DNA from: Fibrobacterota bacterium
Lineage (GTDB): Bacteria; Fibrobacterota; Fibrobacteria; UBA11236
NCBI GenBank assembly: GCA_028287505.1
Contig: JAQBPN010000089.1
Coordinates: forward strand, 1-60,072
Direction: 5' to 3'
Length of the DNA: 60,072 nt
This document shows, one piece after another, positions 8,135-42,674 of this stretch; positions within the stretch are counted from its first letter, which is position 1, and the number at the start of each line of letters is the position of its first letter. A program made the translations under genes and the position numbers. The notes under the pieces are model-generated. The model ran no database searches. It was given only the letters and a program-made list of their open reading frames with translations, and was not told where the DNA came from.

Positions 8135-8275
8135 GTCCCTCGTCGGGCGACCGGGCCACCCTTTGATTGCAATGCTACGCCCCTTGGCGTCGGGCGTCGG
8201 GCGTTAAGAAAAAACAAAACCAATGCAATTCCGGGAATTCCCGGCTTTTTCTTATCGCCCGACGACCGACGAAAT
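8135..8275 (-). repeat. Dispersed palindromic repeat, copy A (inverted)
   Basis: This 141-base intergenic element lies between the YfgM-like gene and uvrB. Read on the minus strand it matches the copies at 18068-18225 and 27910-28088. It begins CATTTCGTCGG, then has a GTCGGGC-type arm ending TAAGAAAAA and a variable centre. The mirror arm follows (TTTTTTCTTAACGCCCGACG...), then GCCAAGGGGCGTAGCATTG, and the end is CGCCCGACGAGGGAC. The arms can pair into a long hairpin with an AT-rich tip. It occupies nearly half of the 296-base gap before uvrB; the remainder holds only a short inverted repeat, CTGCC/GGCAG, at 8338-8354. Confidence 0.8.
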
Positions 8276-8377
8276 GCCGCCCCAGGCTCCCAGGCCTCAA
8301 ATCCCCACTCCAATCGCCCGATCGCTCTTACCCGCACCTGCCACCTTCCGGCAGCCTCGATTCCTATATTCTTACCC

Positions 8378-18067: not shown

Positions 18068-18225
18068 CATTTCGTCGGGCGTCGGGCGACGGGCGTCGGG
18101 CGTAAAGAAAAAACTGGGGAGATTCCCGAATTCGACTGATCTTGGTTTTTCTTTACGCCCGACACCCGACGCCTAGGGGCGTAGCATCAGGGCCAGGGGG
18201 AAGGCCCGTACGCCCGACGAGGGAC
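18068..18225 (+). repeat. Dispersed palindromic repeat, copy B
   Basis: This 158-base element fills the gap between phoH and the small membrane protein. CATTTCGTCGG starts it. The left arm is a run of GTCGGGC-type heptamers ending GTAAAGAAAAAA. The centre (about 18114-18144) is unlike the other copies. The right arm TTTTTCTTTACGCCCGACAC mirrors the left. It continues with GGGGCGTAGCATCAGGGCC and closes with CGCCCGACGAGGGAC. The CGTCGGGCG and CGCCCGACG ends act as terminal inverted repeats. No ORF lies inside. Confidence 0.85.
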
Positions 18226-18250
18226 CAAAGGGTAAAGACCGCTCTGATTC

Positions 18251-19231
18251 CTATGTGGGGAATCCGGACTTCTCGTAGGCCTTGATGATGTCACGGACCA
18301 GGCGATGCCTGACCACGTCCTCGACGGTAAGCTCGATTTGGCCGATGCCTTCGATGCCGGCCAGGATTTTCCGGGCGTGGGCGAAACCGGACTTCTCGAA
18401 CTTGTCGAGATCGACCTGGGTCTCATCCCCGGTAAGCACGGCCTTGCTGTTGATGCCGATACGTGTGAGGAACATCTTCATCTGGGAGATCGACGTGTTC
18501 TGGGCCTCGTCCAGGATGATGAAGCTCTTGCCCAGGGTGCGTCCGCGCATGTAGGCCAGGGGCGCAATCTCAATGGAGTTGCTGTCCCAATATTCCTTGA
18601 GTCTTTCCGCGGAAAGCATGAGGCTCAGGGAGTCGTAAAGCGGCCGCATGTAAGGGCCGATCTTTTCGCCGATGGCGCCGGGGAGAAAGCCCAGGCTCTC
18701 TCCGGATTCGACCGCGGGACGGACTAGGATGATGCGTTCCACCAGCTTCTTTTCCAGGGCCTGAACGGCCATGGCCACGGCGAGGAAGGTTTTGCCGGTT
18801 CCCGCAGGACCGCCTGCCAGCACGATGTCGTGCTGCTTGATGACGTTGATGAATCTGGCCTGCCCGCGCGTTTTCGGCTGGAGCGGATTGCCGAATCGAT
18901 CAATAAGGATGGGCTTCTCGAGGTGGGGCGCGAAATCGCCCTTCTTTTCCTCCGCAGCCTGTGAACCGCCGCTCGCGCTGCCTCCGGCGAGGATCTCCTG
19001 CACGTAGAAGTCGGTAAGCTGATGGCCGGTGCGAAGGGCGTCCCGCATGCGTTCGACGGCTGCGCGGGCGCTGCGTACTTGGGCTTCCTCGCCGGCCTGG
19101 ATGGTGATGCCGGGAGTTCGGGTCAGGAGTTTGACGTGGTAAGTCCGTTCAAGCCGGATGAAGTTCGTTTCACCCTCGCCCGCCAATTGGATTTTTTCGT
19201 CATCCGTGGCGGGAAGATTAAAGGAGAACAA
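18251..19231 (-). CDS. phoH: PhoH family ATPase
   Basis: PhoH-like proteins are cytoplasmic ATPases with RNA-related functions, often found beside ybeY. The 326-residue protein has an N-terminal KH-like region (IRLERTYHVKLLTRTPGITI) and Walker A in GGPAGTGKTFLAVAMAVQAL. It also has VRPAVESGESLGFLPGAIGEK and a Walker B-like FIILDEAQNTSISQMKMFLT, followed by VLTGDETQVDL. I place the start at a TTG at 19231 because AAAGGAG lies 5 bases upstream. The longer open frame runs through the neighbouring lipoprotein gene in another frame. That gene ends only 10 bases upstream, and its tail carries this ribosome site, so the two form one transcript. Confidence 0.92.
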   Translation of the reverse strand: MFSFNLPATDDEKIQLAGEGETNFIRLERTYHVKLLTRTPGITIQAGEEAQVRSARAAVERMRDALRTGHQLTDFYVQEILAGGSASGGSQAAEEKKGDFAPHLEKPILIDRFGNPLQPKTRGQARFINVIKQHDIVLAGGPAGTGKTFLAVAMAVQALEKKLVERIILVRPAVESGESLGFLPGAIGEKIGPYMRPLYDSLSLMLSAERLKEYWDSNSIEIAPLAYMRGRTLGKSFIILDEAQNTSISQMKMFLTRIGINSKAVLTGDETQVDLDKFEKSGFAHARKILAGIEGIGQIELTVEDVVRHRLVRDIIKAYEKSGFPT

Positions 19232-21985: not shown

Positions 21986-24900
21986 ATGGAGAACTCGGCA
22001 ATGGATAGCAGTAACGATTTCAAGGCTGTATTTATGGGGTCGGGAACCCATAAATCCGCCTTCCGCATCTTCGGAAAATCAATGGTGACGGCGGTGTGCG
22101 CCCTCTCTCTGGCATTTTTGGGCTGTTCGCAGAAGGCGAGCAGTTCCAAGGTCGTGGCTCCTCCGGGTCCCGGGGAAAACACGGATCCGAAGAAAGTCGT
22201 TAGCAAACTCGATTCCCTGGTCAAGCAGAATGCCGGCAAGGGCAAGGGCGTGGTCACGGGCTTCCTTACCGGCGAAGGCAAATCAGTCGCCTCCGGTCTG
22301 CTCAAGCAGGCCAGCAACGCCGGCGGCGAACGCCGCCTCCTGACCAAAACGGAAATTCCCCTGACCGGTGCGACCATCCTGATCTTCAACTCCCTGAAGG
22401 CCACGACCGCGGCCGACACAACCCTTAAGACGGATTCCTTGGGCAACTATACCTGCGTGCTCAACGAAGGCAAGTACTTCGGTTTCGCAGTGTATCTCGA
22501 CCTTGAGACCTTCCAGTTGGTGACCACGGGCATTCCCAACATGAATCCCAAAGCGGATACCATCATCCATATGGATACCGCCACCGCCATCGAAGACGTG
22601 ACCGCGCCCACCGTGGCCGGCGTCTATGATGCCAACTCCTCCAACAGCGACGGCATCTTCCTGGTCGGCTCCGTGCCGGACAAGAACGCCAAGATCAACA
22701 TCACCTTCTCCGAACCCATGAACCGTGAATCCGCCAACAAGGGTGTGATCCTGGGCCGTATCGATACCGCCAACACGTCCACTTCCATGGTGCTCGCCGA
22801 TACCGTCAAGACATCGACCATGACCATGAGCTGGAGCGGCGACAGCAAGGAGCTCACCCTAAGCATCGCCTCGCTCTCCACGGGCGCCCAATACGGTTTG
22901 ATCCTGCCCACCACCTTGAAGGACCTGGCCAAGAACCCGCTTGAGAAGGAATACAAGGCCACCTTCGTGACCGCCGCCGCCGCCGAGCTGGCCGCCGTCA
23001 AGTTCGCCGTCGTCTCGACCGTTCCCGGCGACAAGGAATCCATCAAGCCCATCCAGAATCCCGGAGTCAGCTTCAACCGTCCCGTGGAAACCTTCTCCCT
23101 CCTGAAGGGGGCGACCATCGTTCCGGCCGTGACCGGCTACTGGGAAGTTTCCGGCGCGCGCGCCGTATTCATCCATAAGGAACCCCTGGCCGTGGGCACG
23201 ACCTACACCGTCTCCATCCCCGTTTCCGTTACGGACCTTTCCGGCCAGGCCCTCGCGGGCGCTTCCTCCTTCAGCTTCATTGTGAAGGACTTCGAAGGCG
23301 CCGCCAAGGACAACTCCGGAAAGGAGAAAGACGTGGCGCTGGCGGTTGAGAGCGCGTTCGACGCTTACCTGTCCGGCGACATCGGCCGCTTCGGCGCGGC
23401 CTTCCATCCCAATTTCCGCCTCTACGATGAAGACGGAAGCATCCGTTCCAAAGGCGAATTCCTCGACAAGATCCGCGCGGATGTGGGCGAGAGCCAGGCC
23501 TTGGCCGCCGGCATCATGGGTCCCGTATTCGACACTTCCGCTGCCGCTTGCAAAGATCACATGAACGTTTGGAAGGTGGGCGCCGAGGGCGGTACCGCCG
23601 ATGACGTCATCTGGGTCAGCGCCTACGTGAACCCCGGCCAATCCCCGGCCGCCTTCGGCTTGGATCATAAGCAAATCAATCCTTCCGACCTGATCTGGGA
23701 TCCCACCGGCCCCCGCTTCACCTACAAAGGCAAGAAGTACGGATTCGGCCCGGACATGACCCGCTTCCACGGCCCCGTCAACATGGACGCCGCCAAGGGC
23801 GACCTGCGCTTCATGGCCGACTTGCTGAAGCAGACTTCCACCGTGGTGCTGGAACCGGTAAAGCTGGAATCCCGCACGGAGTTCAAGGTGGACAATGCCA
23901 TCACCCTTAATGGCGACACCGCCAATCTGGCCGTGAAGATGATCGACTATTCCAAATACAGCCGGACGAACTTCCGCGACGGCAACATGGCCTGCACTAG
24001 CCTGGCTGCGGATACGAACTACCAGATCCTGAAGTTCGTCCTCATTAACGACGGCTCCAAGTGGCTGGTGATTTCCATCGTCTCGCCCGCCAAGGTATCG
24101 GTCCAGGACTTCAACAAGACCGTGGACACCAAGGATTTCCAGATCAAGCAAATACTTCCCATCACCCTGACCGCTCCGCTCAAGAACGACGCCCAGGGCG
24201 CGGACGGCAAGGTCGTATTCAAGTTCAAGGGACCGGCGCATGACAGCATCGGCGGTTACCTGGTCGGCATCGCGGAAGATCCGAAGTTCTGCTTCGGCCG
24301 CCAGCCCGTAGGCGCGCTGATTTTCGTCAAGGCCTCCAACCATACGGGCGCCGAAGAATCCTTCGTGCTCAATGGTTCGGGAATCCCCGAAGGCAACAAC
24401 GCGACTTCCATTCTCCGCCGCGTGGCGGACCTCAGGCTGCCCGGATGGGATCGGACCATGTTCGAGAACTCCATCACCTCCCTTTTCGATGCGACCAAGG
24501 GTTTCGGCGGCGTGTACAATTGGAAAGCCATCGCCATCAAGGACACTTCGGCGACGCAGTTCCTGGCCAATGGCTTCCTCCCCGAGCGCTTCTACGCGGA
24601 ATCCGATTTCGGCCCCACCAAGGGTTACTTCGCTTGTAAGGCCTTCCCCCAGGGCGATGCGGCTTTCAACGCTTTGCAATCGGCCCAGCAGACCTTCGTG
24701 AACAACCAGCCCGTCGTCGGCAACAGCTTCAGCGATATGGATATGGACGGCATACCCGACGGCATCGAAGCCAAGTACAAGACGGATCCCCGGGATCGCA
24801 ATTCCTATCCCGACTTCCGCACCGATACGGACGGCGACGGCCTGGCCGACTTCCTGGAAGCCATGCTGGATCCCAAGGGCACGCTCGCCATGGTCACCAA

Positions 24901-27313
24901 CAAGGCCACCGAAGCGGGCGTGAAAGAGGAGATCGCCAAGCTCATCGCGGCCGGAATCCCCTGGCAGGATACGGATGGCGACGGATTCCCGGACGACATC
25001 GAAATGATGCAGGGCTTCAATCCCAACGATGCCAAGAACAACCCCGGCACGCGCCCGCGCACCAGCGCCCCGATTGGCGTGTTCGCCGGCAAGTTCCAGA
25101 TGGGAACCCAGACCAACAACATCACCTTCAAGCTGTATACGGATACCGCCAAGGCCTTGTGGGTGACCTATACCGCCGTCATCGGCAGCGATACCCTCAC
25201 CGATTCGGTCAGGACCATGTTCAATGAAGGCGCCGGCGAGGTCTACATCCCCGTCGCATTGCTGAAGAACGGTCCGGACGCCGGCAGGGCCTTGCTCATG
25301 CGCGGCCACTATGACGCCATCTCGTCCCTGTTGATGGGTCCTATCGACATGATCACGGCCCCGGCCAAAGGCTCCGTCAACTTCGGCAGCGGCCCCTATG
25401 TGGGTCAGTTCGCGGCCAGCGGTCGCGGTGAAGATGTCTCCCGTTACCTGCCCGGCAACAATACCGGCACCGTGGTGAACAATCCCGTCAACAACCCGGT
25501 CAACAACGCCGTAACCTACCGCATGCCCCCCGCGGGCGTGAAGGAAGGCGCTCTCATCATCCTGGCGGCCGGCAAGGTCACCCTGGTGGATGAGTTCGGC
25601 GATACCCTGGCCGTGATCGAAAACCTCAGTGTGCGCCCCCAGGCCGACGGCAGCTACGAATTCTTCGGAGAGAAGAAGGTGGTGGCCGCCGACAACAGCT
25701 ACAAGCGCTCGGAAGTGGGCGGCCGCATCGTCTATGACCAGCAGGGAAGCTGGGTCGTGGACGGCCATTTCTTCCAGGAATCCGATTCCTCGGGAGTGCA
25801 TAAGAGCATCCCCGGTCAGCTGAACGCCAAAGGCCTCAAGGCGGACATGACTCCGTCCACCGACGGCATCACCGGCACCATGAAAGGATGGATCGCCCAG
25901 GACAAGAGCGGTAACGGTTTCACGGCCCAGCCCGTAAACAATGTTCCCGCCTGCGACCCTACCAAGGGTCCCTGCACCACGGATCCCAACGCTTGCGACC
26001 CCGCCAAGGGCCCTTGCAATACCAACCCTTGCCCCGCGGGCCAGGTTTGCCCCCCCGTGAACAACAATCCCGGCACGTCCTTCCAGAAGTCCTTCATGGC
26101 CGGCACGGTCGTCTTCAAGATGTACCTGGAAAGGGCCGCCATCAAGTCCGGCGACTACTTCTACGTCTCCATGGGCGGTCGCGTGTATCGCGTGAAGAAC
26201 GATTCCCTGCATGTGGCCAATGCCATGGCCCCGATGTGCGGACAGGTGGTCCTGACGCTGGAAGCGATTCCCGCCAAGGATGAATCCTCCGGCGCCAAGG
26301 CCGCTTTCATGGCGGACTCGATGGGATTGCCCATGGGCTCCACCAACCTGGTTTTCCTGATGGAAGACCAGTTCGCCGCCGGCGTTCCCAATCGTTTGGA
26401 CAAGGCCTTCGACAACCAGGGTGAAGTCCGCGCGAACGTCTTCGTCGTGGAAATCCGCCCGGTGACCCTCGACTACGGCAAGAGCGCCATGGTCTGCGGC
26501 AACGGCCCCATCGTGAACAACCCGGTCTGCGATCCCACCAAGCAGGTATGCAACCAGCCCTGCGATCCCGCCAGAGGCCCTTGCGGCCCTGTGGATACCA
26601 ACAAGGTTGTTTGCGACCCGGCCAAGGGTCCCTGCAACCAACCCTGCGATCCGGCCAAAGGCCCTTGCGGTCCGGCCGTCGGCGGGTTCAAAGCTCCTTT
26701 GTACAAGGGACCGCTCGATATGCTGACGGTCGCCCTGGGTTCGTCCAACAACCAGGTGGGATTGGTTAAGGACAGCACGATGACCGTTTCCGGCAAAGTG
26801 ACCATCAATCCCGCATCCATAACCGTCGAGCCCAATACCAGGAACGTGATCGTCATGGACGCGGCCGGCACCGGCAAGTATCTGGTGTTGGCGATTCAGG
26901 GCGATTCATCCAAGATCCTCATCAAGGACGGAATGCCTTTGGTTTTCCCCAAGCCCAATGATTCGGGAACCGTGGTCAACAATCCGCCCAAGGACACGGT
27001 GCCGCCGGTGGTCAACAATCCTCCCCAGGATACCGCCAAGCCCGTTCCCTATATCGGCACCGTGGACAACCTGAGGAGCCTGCTGGTTTCCAAGCTCAAC
27101 AAGGTGAGGATTCCCGGCCCCAATGGCGTGACCGATGCGGTGGTGAATCCGGAATCCCTGCAAAGCGACGGTACATATACCACGGGCGTAGATGCCAATA
27201 ACAGCACCAGGATCTATGTCTTCCTGGCGCCCAAGGCGGCTCCCACCAAGGTCTTTCTGGGACCGGATGGCGCCATCCTTGTCGCGGAAAAGTCGACGAT
27301 AGCCGGTCTTTAA
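21986..27313 (+). CDS. Giant multidomain lipoprotein with Ig-like, TSP3-like and Cys-rich repeats
   Basis: The protein has 1775 residues. The N-terminus ends in the lipobox AFLGC near residue 47. Two SbsA-type Ig-like domains are likely at about 205-325 (INITFSEPMNRESANKGVIL) and 335-435 (ARAVFIHKEPLAVGTTYTVS). An NTF2-like segment follows at about 445-550 (FDAYLSGDIGRFGAAFHP). Calcium-binding TSP3-like repeats lie at about 915-1010 (DMDMDGIPDGIE, DTDGDGLADFLE, DTDGDGFPDDIE). Asn/Pro linkers (VVNNPVNNPVNN) and two clusters of CDPxKGPC repeats (about 1320-1360 and 1510-1565) come next. It is probably a cell-surface protein. Start choice is uncertain: ATG at 22001 has GGAG 10 bases upstream. 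Confidence 0.8.
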   Translation: MENSAMDSSNDFKAVFMGSGTHKSAFRIFGKSMVTAVCALSLAFLGCSQKASSSKVVAPPGPGENTDPKKVVSKLDSLVKQNAGKGKGVVTGFLTGEGKSVASGLLKQASNAGGERRLLTKTEIPLTGATILIFNSLKATTAADTTLKTDSLGNYTCVLNEGKYFGFAVYLDLETFQLVTTGIPNMNPKADTIIHMDTATAIEDVTAPTVAGVYDANSSNSDGIFLVGSVPDKNAKINITFSEPMNRESANKGVILGRIDTANTSTSMVLADTVKTSTMTMSWSGDSKELTLSIASLSTGAQYGLILPTTLKDLAKNPLEKEYKATFVTAAAAELAAVKFAVVSTVPGDKESIKPIQNPGVSFNRPVETFSLLKGATIVPAVTGYWEVSGARAVFIHKEPLAVGTTYTVSIPVSVTDLSGQALAGASSFSFIVKDFEGAAKDNSGKEKDVALAVESAFDAYLSGDIGRFGAAFHPNFRLYDEDGSIRSKGEFLDKIRADVGESQALAAGIMGPVFDTSAAACKDHMNVWKVGAEGGTADDVIWVSAYVNPGQSPAAFGLDHKQINPSDLIWDPTGPRFTYKGKKYGFGPDMTRFHGPVNMDAAKGDLRFMADLLKQTSTVVLEPVKLESRTEFKVDNAITLNGDTANLAVKMIDYSKYSRTNFRDGNMACTSLAADTNYQILKFVLINDGSKWLVISIVSPAKVSVQDFNKTVDTKDFQIKQILPITLTAPLKNDAQGADGKVVFKFKGPAHDSIGGYLVGIAEDPKFCFGRQPVGALIFVKASNHTGAEESFVLNGSGIPEGNNATSILRRVADLRLPGWDRTMFENSITSLFDATKGFGGVYNWKAIAIKDTSATQFLANGFLPERFYAESDFGPTKGYFACKAFPQGDAAFNALQSAQQTFVNNQPVVGNSFSDMDMDGIPDGIEAKYKTDPRDRNSYPDFRTDTDGDGLADFLEAMLDPKGTLAMVTNKATEAGVKEEIAKLIAAGIPWQDTDGDGFPDDIEMMQGFNPNDAKNNPGTRPRTSAPIGVFAGKFQMGTQTNNITFKLYTDTAKALWVTYTAVIGSDTLTDSVRTMFNEGAGEVYIPVALLKNGPDAGRALLMRGHYDAISSLLMGPIDMITAPAKGSVNFGSGPYVGQFAASGRGEDVSRYLPGNNTGTVVNNPVNNPVNNAVTYRMPPAGVKEGALIILAAGKVTLVDEFGDTLAVIENLSVRPQADGSYEFFGEKKVVAADNSYKRSEVGGRIVYDQQGSWVVDGHFFQESDSSGVHKSIPGQLNAKGLKADMTPSTDGITGTMKGWIAQDKSGNGFTAQPVNNVPACDPTKGPCTTDPNACDPAKGPCNTNPCPAGQVCPPVNNNPGTSFQKSFMAGTVVFKMYLERAAIKSGDYFYVSMGGRVYRVKNDSLHVANAMAPMCGQVVLTLEAIPAKDESSGAKAAFMADSMGLPMGSTNLVFLMEDQFAAGVPNRLDKAFDNQGEVRANVFVVEIRPVTLDYGKSAMVCGNGPIVNNPVCDPTKQVCNQPCDPARGPCGPVDTNKVVCDPAKGPCNQPCDPAKGPCGPAVGGFKAPLYKGPLDMLTVALGSSNNQVGLVKDSTMTVSGKVTINPASITVEPNTRNVIVMDAAGTGKYLVLAIQGDSSKILIKDGMPLVFPKPNDSGTVVNNPPKDTVPPVVNNPPQDTAKPVPYIGTVDNLRSLLVSKLNKVRIPGPNGVTDAVVNPESLQSDGTYTTGVDANNSTRIYVFLAPKAAPTKVFLGPDGAILVAEKSTIAGL

Positions 27314-27909: not shown

Positions 27910-28088
27910 CATCCCGTCGGGCGTCGGGCGACCCGGCACGAAGCGTGCCTGGGCGTCGGGCGTTAAGAAAAAAAGAATCCTGACTAAGTCACGGTGCATG
28001 CTCTTGCATGCTTTTCTTTTCTTAACGCCCGACGCCCGACGCCAAGGGGCACAGCGTTGTAACCAGGGGGCAGCCCGTACGCCCGACG
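27910..28088 (+). repeat. Dispersed palindromic repeat, copy C
   Basis: This 179-base element, in the same orientation as copy B, lies between convergent genes ending at 27853 and 28150. The left arm is CGTCGGGCGTCGGGCGA, interrupted by an extra hairpin (GGCACG/CGTGCC) before the last heptamer and TTAAGAAAAAAA. The centre contains its own palindrome, GCATGCTCTTGCATGC. The right arm CTTTTCTTAACGCCCGACG continues into GCCAAGGGGCACAGCGTTG and ends CCCGTACGCCCGACG. Confidence 0.85.
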
Positions 28089-40682: not shown

Positions 40683-42674
40683 CTAATGGGGGAGCCGATC
40701 CCGGATCCCCTTGACCTTCAGCTGATAGGCCTCATTGGGTTGGAACTCGGAAATGTAGGCATTGGCCGATTTCAGCACATTGATGCGGTTCCCGGGGGTT
40801 TTTTGGGCTTCGTAGGTGGCCGCATCGGTTTGCCACAGCAGATACATGACCTGTTCATGGAAAATGCTGGGGTGCATGAATTCGGGACGGGCCGACAGCA
40901 GGGAGACCAGATCCCGTCGCGCGTCCGGAGAGGCGGGGTTCCGCGCCAGCATCAACTGGGACCTGAGCAGGCGCAAATCCGGGGATTCCGGTTTGATGGC
41001 GAGCAGGGCCGAGATTTTCTCGAATGCAGCGGGGTCTTCCTCCCGGACCAGGGTTTGCACCCGGACAAAGCCCTCTTTCCCCCAATCCGCATCCCCGACG
41101 TTGTCACCGGTTTCCGTGCCCAGCCCCGCCAAGGCTCCCAGTCTGGCCGCGTCCGCCGCCCTGGCGGCTTCTCCGCTTCTGGCGCCCGGCCCCGTTCCAT
41201 GCGGCGAACCCGCTTTGGCGCCCGCGGTTGCGATGCCTTTTTCCGATTTGACGCCCAAGGTCCGGTCGCCCAAAGGCCGGACCTTGGACCCTGCGGGCTG
41301 GGTGGGGCCATCCAAGCGTTCCAGGGTCTCATGGCCGCCCGTTTCGCGTTCCGCGTTCTGCGCCGTCGCCGTGCGAGGGTTCGTCATGCCGGCGGCGGGA
41401 AGCGCGGCATCGGGACGGGAATGGCCCGGTCCGAATTGCCAGGCCGCTCCCAGGGTCAGCGCCAGGCAGACCGCCGAGGCCGCCACGTAGACCAGCGGGG
41501 AGCGCCGCTTGGCCGGATGGCGAAGTCCCGAGGCGTAATCCAAGGGTTGCAGTAACGTGGGCATTACCCCGCTGGAGGCCTGGTCGGTGGGTTGCCGCCC
41601 GTCCACGGGCATCAGGAGCTCCGGGTGGGCGAGCTTCTTGCCCAGACCGATCAGGATATCGTTCACGGTCCGTCCGCCCGAAAGGGTGTGGAAGACCTCT
41701 TCCATGTCCGGCCGCATGGAAGCCGCGTCCGGGTACTGGTAGGGCTGCTCGCTCAAGGGCACGGAAAAGTCGTGGTAGACCAGGCATTTCCGGAGCACGC
41801 CGGATGCGAACGAATGCGCCGAGGCTATTTCCAGATGGCATTGGGAATAGACTTCCGGATCCAGGATCTTGATGATGATCTGCGGCGAAGTCTCCCCATA
41901 GAAGGGAAGCCGGCCCGTCAGCAATTGGTAGTACAAGACTCCGATGGCATGGATATCGTGCTGGGTCTCGCGGAAGTCCTTCCAGAAATCCTGGTACTGC
42001 GCCTTCTCTTCCGGGCTGTTCGCCTTTTGCAGGCGGGCCTTGCCCATGTAGGGAATGGTGCCGACAAGGTTCTGATCCACGGTGACGTTTTCCGTGAGGG
42101 CGGTTTTGGCCGTCCCGAAATCGATCAATACCAGCCGGCCTTTTTCATTGCCCTTGACGCCCAGAATGAGGTTGCCGGGGGAAATGTCGCGATGCGCCAC
42201 GCCGAAGATCTCGCGATCGGGAAGATGCACGTTGGCGCGATGCGCGTATTCGAGCGGATAGAGGGCCGAAAGGATCAAGGCCGAGGCCGTGACCGGGTCG
42301 ATGAGATCCTGCCAGGCGCAACCGAGTTCGGATTGACGCTGCGCCACGATGTCCAACAGCGCCCGCAGGCTGAATCCCTGGATATAATCCAGGATCATGT
42401 AGCGATGGCCGTGCTTGTCGCCTTGGCCGCGCAGGGTCACGATTTGCGGATGCTTCAGCCGGCTGAGGATCAGGCCCTCTTCCAGAAAGGTCTTGAGGTG
42501 CCGGCGCCGGGAGGCCTCGTCCAGGCCGTTGTCCTGGGAAACCTTGATGACGCGGTGTTCCTGCAGTTCCTCGTCGAACGCCAGGTAGGTAAGCCCATAT
42601 CCTCCGCGCCCGATCAATCGTTCCACCACGCATTTTTCGAAGCGGGTGCCGATCAATTGGTCTTGGGCGATCAT
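40683..42674 (-). CDS. Transmembrane Ser/Thr protein kinase
   Basis: The protein has 663 residues. A Hanks-type kinase domain occupies about 1-320: glycine loop LIGRGGYGLTYLAF, the ATP-binding Lys in HRVIKVSQD, catalytic loop GVAHRDISPGNLIL (HRDISPGN rather than HRDLKPxN), and LVLIDFGTAKT (DFG). A single membrane segment follows at about 393-413 (VYVAASAVCLALTLGAAWQF). The extracytoplasmic part is Pro/Ala-rich, then helical and TPR-like towards the C-terminus (PESPDLRLLRSQLMLARNPA). It lies 31 bases downstream of the parvulin gene on the same strand, probably as one operon. A role in envelope sensing is inferred. Confidence 0.9.
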   Translation of the reverse strand: MIAQDQLIGTRFEKCVVERLIGRGGYGLTYLAFDEELQEHRVIKVSQDNGLDEASRRRHLKTFLEEGLILSRLKHPQIVTLRGQGDKHGHRYMILDYIQGFSLRALLDIVAQRQSELGCAWQDLIDPVTASALILSALYPLEYAHRANVHLPDREIFGVAHRDISPGNLILGVKGNEKGRLVLIDFGTAKTALTENVTVDQNLVGTIPYMGKARLQKANSPEEKAQYQDFWKDFRETQHDIHAIGVLYYQLLTGRLPFYGETSPQIIIKILDPEVYSQCHLEIASAHSFASGVLRKCLVYHDFSVPLSEQPYQYPDAASMRPDMEEVFHTLSGGRTVNDILIGLGKKLAHPELLMPVDGRQPTDQASSGVMPTLLQPLDYASGLRHPAKRRSPLVYVAASAVCLALTLGAAWQFGPGHSRPDAALPAAGMTNPRTATAQNAERETGGHETLERLDGPTQPAGSKVRPLGDRTLGVKSEKGIATAGAKAGSPHGTGPGARSGEAARAADAARLGALAGLGTETGDNVGDADWGKEGFVRVQTLVREEDPAAFEKISALLAIKPESPDLRLLRSQLMLARNPASPDARRDLVSLLSARPEFMHPSIFHEQVMYLLWQTDAATYEAQKTPGNRINVLKSANAYISEFQPNEAYQLKVKGIRDRLPH

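Follow-up and report, generated by a model that had tools for sequence, protein, structure and literature searches.

The window, a stretch of 60,072 nucleotides, is contig C28 of a 6.07-Mb Fibrobacterota MAG (130 contigs, 98.7% complete), hereafter G000, which was compared with five congeners (G001-G005). A sequence-only reading had placed three palindromic elements with heptamer arms in this window, and all three were located there far above chance, with cores at 8141-8271, 18073-18219 and 27915-28088. Between the second and the third lies a 1775-aa ORF (22001-27313) with cysteine- and proline-rich internal repeats (CDPAKGPCNQPCDPA-like) around 25952-26673. The parts of the three loci are as follows.

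8141 to 8271, minus strand: core of element 1 (inverted), with heptamer arms, a c3 cassette (GCCAAGGGGCGTAGCATTG type) and a TTAAGAAAAA centre
8272 to 8332, no strand assigned: outer arm of element 1, type A, AAATGCCGCCCCAGGCTCCCAGGCCTCAAATCCCC...GATCGCTCTTA, conserved across the family
18073 to 18219, plus strand: core of element 2, with heptamer arms, a TAAAGAAAAA/TTTTTCTTTA centre and a c3 cassette
18220 to 18251, no strand assigned: outer arm of element 2, type B, AGGGACCAAAGGGTAAAGACCGCTCTGATTCC, a module present also at about ten other copies
27915 to 28088, plus strand: core of element 3, consisting of a left arm with a c1 cassette (ACCCGGCACGAAGCGTGCCTGGG), a centre and a right arm with a c3 cassette
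27931 to 27953, plus strand: hairpin of the c1 cassette of element 3, the stem of which varies between copies with compensatory changes
27963 to 28025, plus strand: variable centre of element 3, TTAAGAAAAAAA ... TTTTCTTAA; centres are terminator-like in about one third of the copies
28042 to 28079, plus strand: c3 cassette in the right arm of element 3, CCAAGGGGCACAGCGTTG...GCAGCCCGTA

The three copies counted in the window proved to be a small part of the family, since about 113 elements were estimated for G000 from 77 copies fetched with their flanks. The double heptamer CGTCGGGCGTCGGGCG occurred 283 times in G000, 143 times in G005 and nine times in G002, while its backwards control gave no hit in G000 and a pattern search of the other 58 genomes of the genus, family, order and class returned none. 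A BLAST search with element 3 as the query gave 151 matches in its own genome; the named matches to the repeat were from 'Fibrobacteres bacterium nzgw217' (JAHFCH01), which is the congener G005, and the repeat had no Rfam match. Within 537 kb of G000 DNA rich in elements, tandem arrays were over-represented only at period 7 (61 arrays) and at twice that period, 14 (46 arrays); each of the other lags from 4 to 15 gave 0-4 arrays. Several contig ends of the MAG fall within elements (e.g., C4:1, C40:1 and the ends of C62, C66 and C104), as is expected for repeats, and the copy number is thus probably underestimated.

The basic form of the element was found to be (CGTCGGG)3-4 CG, TTAAGAAAAA, a variable centre, TTTTTCTTAA and CG(CCCGACG)3-4, with a median core of 147 bp and a median of 63 nt between the heptamers. 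In either arm, one or more heptamers can be replaced by a hairpin cassette, of which there are at least five interchangeable types; the block GCCAAGGGGCGTAGCATTG, which had been taken as conserved, is indeed present, yet it is one of these cassettes and is missing from many copies, many having plain heptamer arms with no cassette at all. The stem of the c1 cassette occurs as CACG/CGTG, CGCG/CGCG, TGCG/CGCA and CCCG/CGGG, and these compensatory changes could also arise from self-correction of the palindrome. Terminator-like structures were predicted for 26 of 70 centres in one direction and for 19 in both, compared with a mean of 0.6 in shuffled sequences. The ends had been drawn too short, for outer arms of the form AAAYGC..CTAC..CTCC..GCATCAAATCCC ... 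TCTTC, degenerate but conserved, run about 55-60 nt past the heptamers on each side, the TCTTC end lying about 50-60 nt out from them. Left and right outer arms were no more similar within an element than between elements (p = 0.63); they were therefore rejected as element-specific paired stems and regarded as family-wide conserved ends. No target-site duplication was evident by eye in the flanks of elements in G000, G003 and G005, where the exact element boundaries are uncertain.

The elements sit at the 3' ends of genes, with a median of 57 nt from the stop codon of the neighbour to the first heptamer. According to gene calls made with a simple hexamer-based caller, divergent genes flank only 3 of the 69 copies with both neighbours called, whereas they flank 54 of the 148 background gaps that measure at least 80 bp (p = 6e-8). 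In each of the sister families of G003 and G005, described below, 1 of 22 copies lay between divergent genes (p = 0.006 for either family versus gaps of at least 80 bp), a deficit that was not significant against all gene pairs.

Comparison of orthologous sites demonstrated insertion-site polymorphism. All five congeners retain the gene pair that flanks element 3, with no element in the space between the two genes. The site of element 2 is empty in G001, G002 and G004; at that of element 1, G001 and G004 have no element and G002 has a remnant. In G003 and G005, the loci of elements 1 and 2 carry a different, GC-rich repeat instead, which is apparently a second dispersed repeat family. This repeat (G003:C57:31100-31800 and 40900-41800, L264 and L265; in G005, L272, L273, L275 and L276) is about 400-600 bp long with palindromic parts, contains ...GGGGAAGG..CCTTCCCC..., and is unrelated to the heptamer elements.

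The statement that the elements encode nothing was correct for the three in the window but not for the family, as the member at G000:C16:56799-57283 (L161) encodes a protein. This copy has perfect (CGTCGGG)4 and (CCCGACG)4 arms around a 425-bp centre whose sole ORF specifies a protein of about 120 aa matching PF05635, the 23S rRNA-intervening sequence protein (IVP), with E values of 6.4e-37 to 1.7e-36; no transposase is encoded. G000 has no other PF05635 gene, and this one lies between two protein genes, not inside a 23S rRNA gene. The reading frame of the upstream gene stops inside or just past the left heptamer array and that of IVP continues into the right one, so that both C-termini would be supplied by element sequence. 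The 425-bp centre has no obvious similarity to the short centres, and the short forms are thus not simple internal deletions of the coding copy. The protein also matches PDB 2GSC (E 6.5e-26), the structure of X. campestris XCC0516, whose four-helix bundles are described as assembling into a toroidal homopentamer (PMC4990558). An IVP gene of G005 with the same heptamer adjoins an ABC-transporter gene that is apparently the orthologue of the one in G000; the two IVP proteins are 72% identical, with a dN of 0.21 and a dS that could not be estimated, values that are suggestive, though not proof, of purifying selection on IVP.

The association of IVP genes with inverted heptamer arrays extends through Fibrobacterota and to plasmids of other phyla. 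All five IVP genes of the genus are flanked by inverted arrays built from four different heptamers, namely CGTCGGG (G000 and G005), AGGGTAN (G003), and the AAGGTTT type and AAAAGTG (both G005). PF05635 was detected in 100 of the 168 Fibrobacterota genomes searched, and the best tandem lag was 7 or 14 at 32 of the 34 scorable loci in this phylum and 7, 14 or 8 at most of 15 plasmid loci. Among 47 IVP genes from Fibrobacterota and from plasmids of cyanobacteria and a gemmatimonad, which are not all independent because some are orthologous between close species, 46 carry an array of tandem 7-8-nt units upstream, downstream or both, and in most cases inverted arrays enclose the gene. In a comparison with 285 control windows, for which L186, L230 and L231 were not automatically scorable, an array was found in either flank of 98% of IVP loci versus 7% of controls, and in both flanks of 72% versus 1.4%. 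Upstream and downstream arrays matched in inverted orientation at 87% of IVP loci versus 1% of controls, the proportion falling to 6% when partners were swapped between loci. Plasmid IVPs with arrays occur in Nostoc, Calothrix, Geminocystis, Anabaena, Pseudanabaena and others, as illustrated by the N. edaphicum plasmid, which has AGGGAAC x3, IVP and (TGTTCCC)n in this order; 8-nt units were seen at the Gemmatirosa, Picosynechococcus and Oscillatoria loci, and the array signal was weaker at the Leptolyngbya and Stanieria plasmid IVPs. No IVP was found in viral contigs. Some cyanobacterial plasmids carry IVP genes inside CRISPR-Cas operons (L222, L227 and L228): the gene separates cas6 from cas4 in Anabaena sp. 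90 and Pseudanabaena galeata, and cas10 from cmr3 in Picosynechococcus PCC 7003. These are probably insertions and could be misread as Cas accessory genes.

If the gene-less hairpins depend on IVP elements, those of each genome should bear the heptamer of its own IVP. Heptamers matched in this manner across the congeners. In pattern hits, which come several per element, the counts for G000, G001, G002, G003, G004 and G005 were 283, 0, 9, 0, 0 and 143 for CGTCGGG, 0, 0, 0, 220, 0 and 0 for AGGGTAN, and 0, 0, 0, 0, 0 and 361 for AAGGTYT. No PF05635 gene was found in G001, G002 or G004, and each of the three heptamers is abundant only where the matching IVP is present; the one exception, the nine G002 hits, is a handful of degenerate relic copies, as would be left if the IVP element had been lost. 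For the fourth heptamer, AAAAGTG, exact hits numbered three and were confined to G005, two of them being IVP arms; this result is weak, with A-rich noise and a noisy control. The derivatives in G003 are gene-less hairpins of 77-143 bp with about 3-7 heptamers per side, and a Fibrobacter-class genome (G036) has a few arrays similar to the heptamer of its IVP. The six genomes are related and the CGTCGGG IVPs of G000 and G005 are apparently at the same locus, so the comparison does not amount to six independent trials.

On these grounds, we propose as likely a new class of mobile elements, herein termed IVP-heptamer elements, of which the repeats would be the non-autonomous (MITE-like) members. 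This accords with the earlier suggestion of a non-autonomous mobile element or a new class of interspersed repeat, which is borne out by the roughly 113 dispersed copies, the empty orthologous sites, the genus-restricted spread and the apparent autonomous partner. The mobiliser that had been suggested, a TnpA-REP (Y1) transposase, was not supported, because PF01797, present in 5 of 14 control genomes, had no match in G000, and the apparent partner is the PF05635 gene. The class would be defined by inverted arrays of tandem 7-nt (sometimes 8-nt) repeats, with an autonomous form of about 400-490 bp holding a single IVP/S23 four-helix-bundle gene between the arrays; each lineage would have its own heptamer, borne also by the gene-less hairpins of the same genome. 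The homopentameric IVP ring may read the array on single-stranded DNA or RNA, perhaps with one heptamer per subunit, as suggested by a five-subunit ring and arrays of roughly 3-6 units. It could then bring both ends together and guide the copying or insertion of whatever DNA lies between matching arrays, and the gene-less copies would be mobilised in trans. In this inferred course of mobilisation, host enzymes would presumably supply the strand chemistry, as no known nuclease, recombinase or polymerase is encoded by the element and neither RVT_1 nor Y1 was detected in G000. IVP folds are not known to have a catalytic site, and a host enzyme not yet recognised could be the mobiliser, with IVP in an accessory role. 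A site just past stop codons would avoid harm, and the centres may often act as terminators.

In a more far-reaching form of this proposal, the protein that confers specificity and drives mobilisation in a widespread, hitherto unrecognised class of transposable elements would be IVP (PF05635) itself: its pentameric ring would read inverted 7-8-nt tandem arrays and move any DNA enclosed by them with no need of a classical transposase or reverse transcriptase. The orphan heptamers known from cyanobacteria, Beggiatoaceae and xanthomonads would then belong to this class, and the 23S rRNA IVSs would be the members that landed in rRNA. We advance this tentatively, judging its chance to be slightly below even. 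Mobility based on an RVT_1 reverse transcriptase was rejected because no such gene (PF00078) was detected in G000.

Another explanation, which we regard as unlikely, is that a conventional transposase of the host (DDE, HUH or RT) moves the hairpins in trans and that IVP is a captured passenger. MITEs normally depend on a transposase in trans, the transposase search in G000 covered the Y1 and RVT_1 families, and IVP lacks known catalytic residues. However, genes of both families searched are missing from G000, and the arrangement of IVP between inverted arrays recurs with many heptamers in Fibrobacterota, Cyanobacteria and Gemmatimonadota, which would not be the case for a chance passenger. Less probable still is a lack of mobility altogether, with the hairpins being selected host elements at gene 3' ends (bidirectional terminators or mRNA-stabilising structures), the heptamers structural repeats of their stems, and IVP a protein that regulates or binds their RNA. 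Such a role would fit the strong 3'-end bias, the excess of terminator-like centres over shuffles and the compensatory c1 stem changes, whereas the empty orthologous sites in congeners with intact host genes, the species-specific heptamers and copy numbers, and the occurrence of IVP elements on plasmids all argue against it. Most improbable are REP/BIME-like palindromes of the CGTC-tagged superfamily (Di Nocera et al., 2013, PMC3733652) moved by RAYT, because, although the elements are palindromic, intergenic and begin with CGTC and CGTC REPs are said to be without a known dedicated transposase (PMC3733652), a REP is by definition a 20-40 bp palindrome with an unpaired GTAG/CGTC tag (PMC3733652), whereas CGTC here lies in a paired tandem heptamer within a core of far greater median length, the sister families in the genus are built on AGGGTAN or AAGGTYT, neither of which contains CGTC, and G000 has no Y1 gene.

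IVP-heptamer elements look like a previously unrecognised kind of mobile DNA. If this is true, IVP/S23, a large protein family whose role is unknown, would gain a function, heptanucleotide repeats so far without explanation would be accounted for, a transposition system without a recognised recombinase would be added to those known, and the repeat family of a genome would be predictable from the heptamer flanking its IVP gene. No link between IVP and heptamer arrays was found in the literature covered, which excluded subscription journals and preprints, and prior publication is possible.

Among the known systems, the 23S rRNA IVS of Coxiella and Leptospira is likewise an element of about 430 bp with a single IVP ORF and inverted terminal arms forming a long stem (PMC4990558); these IVSs have long been suspected to be selfish or mobile (PMC4990558), and the same paper cites a hypothesis of their mobility from 1993. 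Its layout of IVP between inverted arms is shared by the autonomous copies only; the present elements differ from it in lying intergenically at mRNA 3' ends, in their tandem heptamer arms and in having about 100 gene-less derivatives that share these arms. The DGR accessory protein Avd is reported to resemble PF05635 in sequence and structure (PMC10053308), while G000, unlike a DGR, has no detected reverse transcriptase. With BOX/BIME/REP mosaics, the elements share a modular palindromic intergenic organization with exchangeable parts, from which they differ by the heptamer arrays, the IVP partner and the absence of RAYT. The coding element, in contrast to that of MITEs, has no transposase, its ends are 7-nt tandem arrays and no target-site duplication was recognised; like MITEs, the gene-less copies are short, dispersed inverted repeats with empty sites in relatives, and their ends match a longer coding element of the same genome, a pattern seen also in G003 and G005.

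Intergenic tandem heptamers are shared with the heptanucleotide repeats, i.e., TAACTGA, GGGAATC and the cyanobacterial repeats named STRR. For the TAACTGA repeats of Beggiatoaceae, 'no mechanism is evident' (PMC4679880). The GGGAATC repeats of Xanthomonas form 70-75 convergent inverted pairs and, like those of Nostoc, are generally not found with mobile elements (PMC4692102); neither paper contains 'S23' or 'intervening' in its text. X. campestris also encodes an IVP (PDB 2GSC), and for STRR a heptamer flanking an IVP gene is supported on cyanobacterial plasmids. The 7-letter repeats scattered in many other bacteria may be explained by IVP elements.
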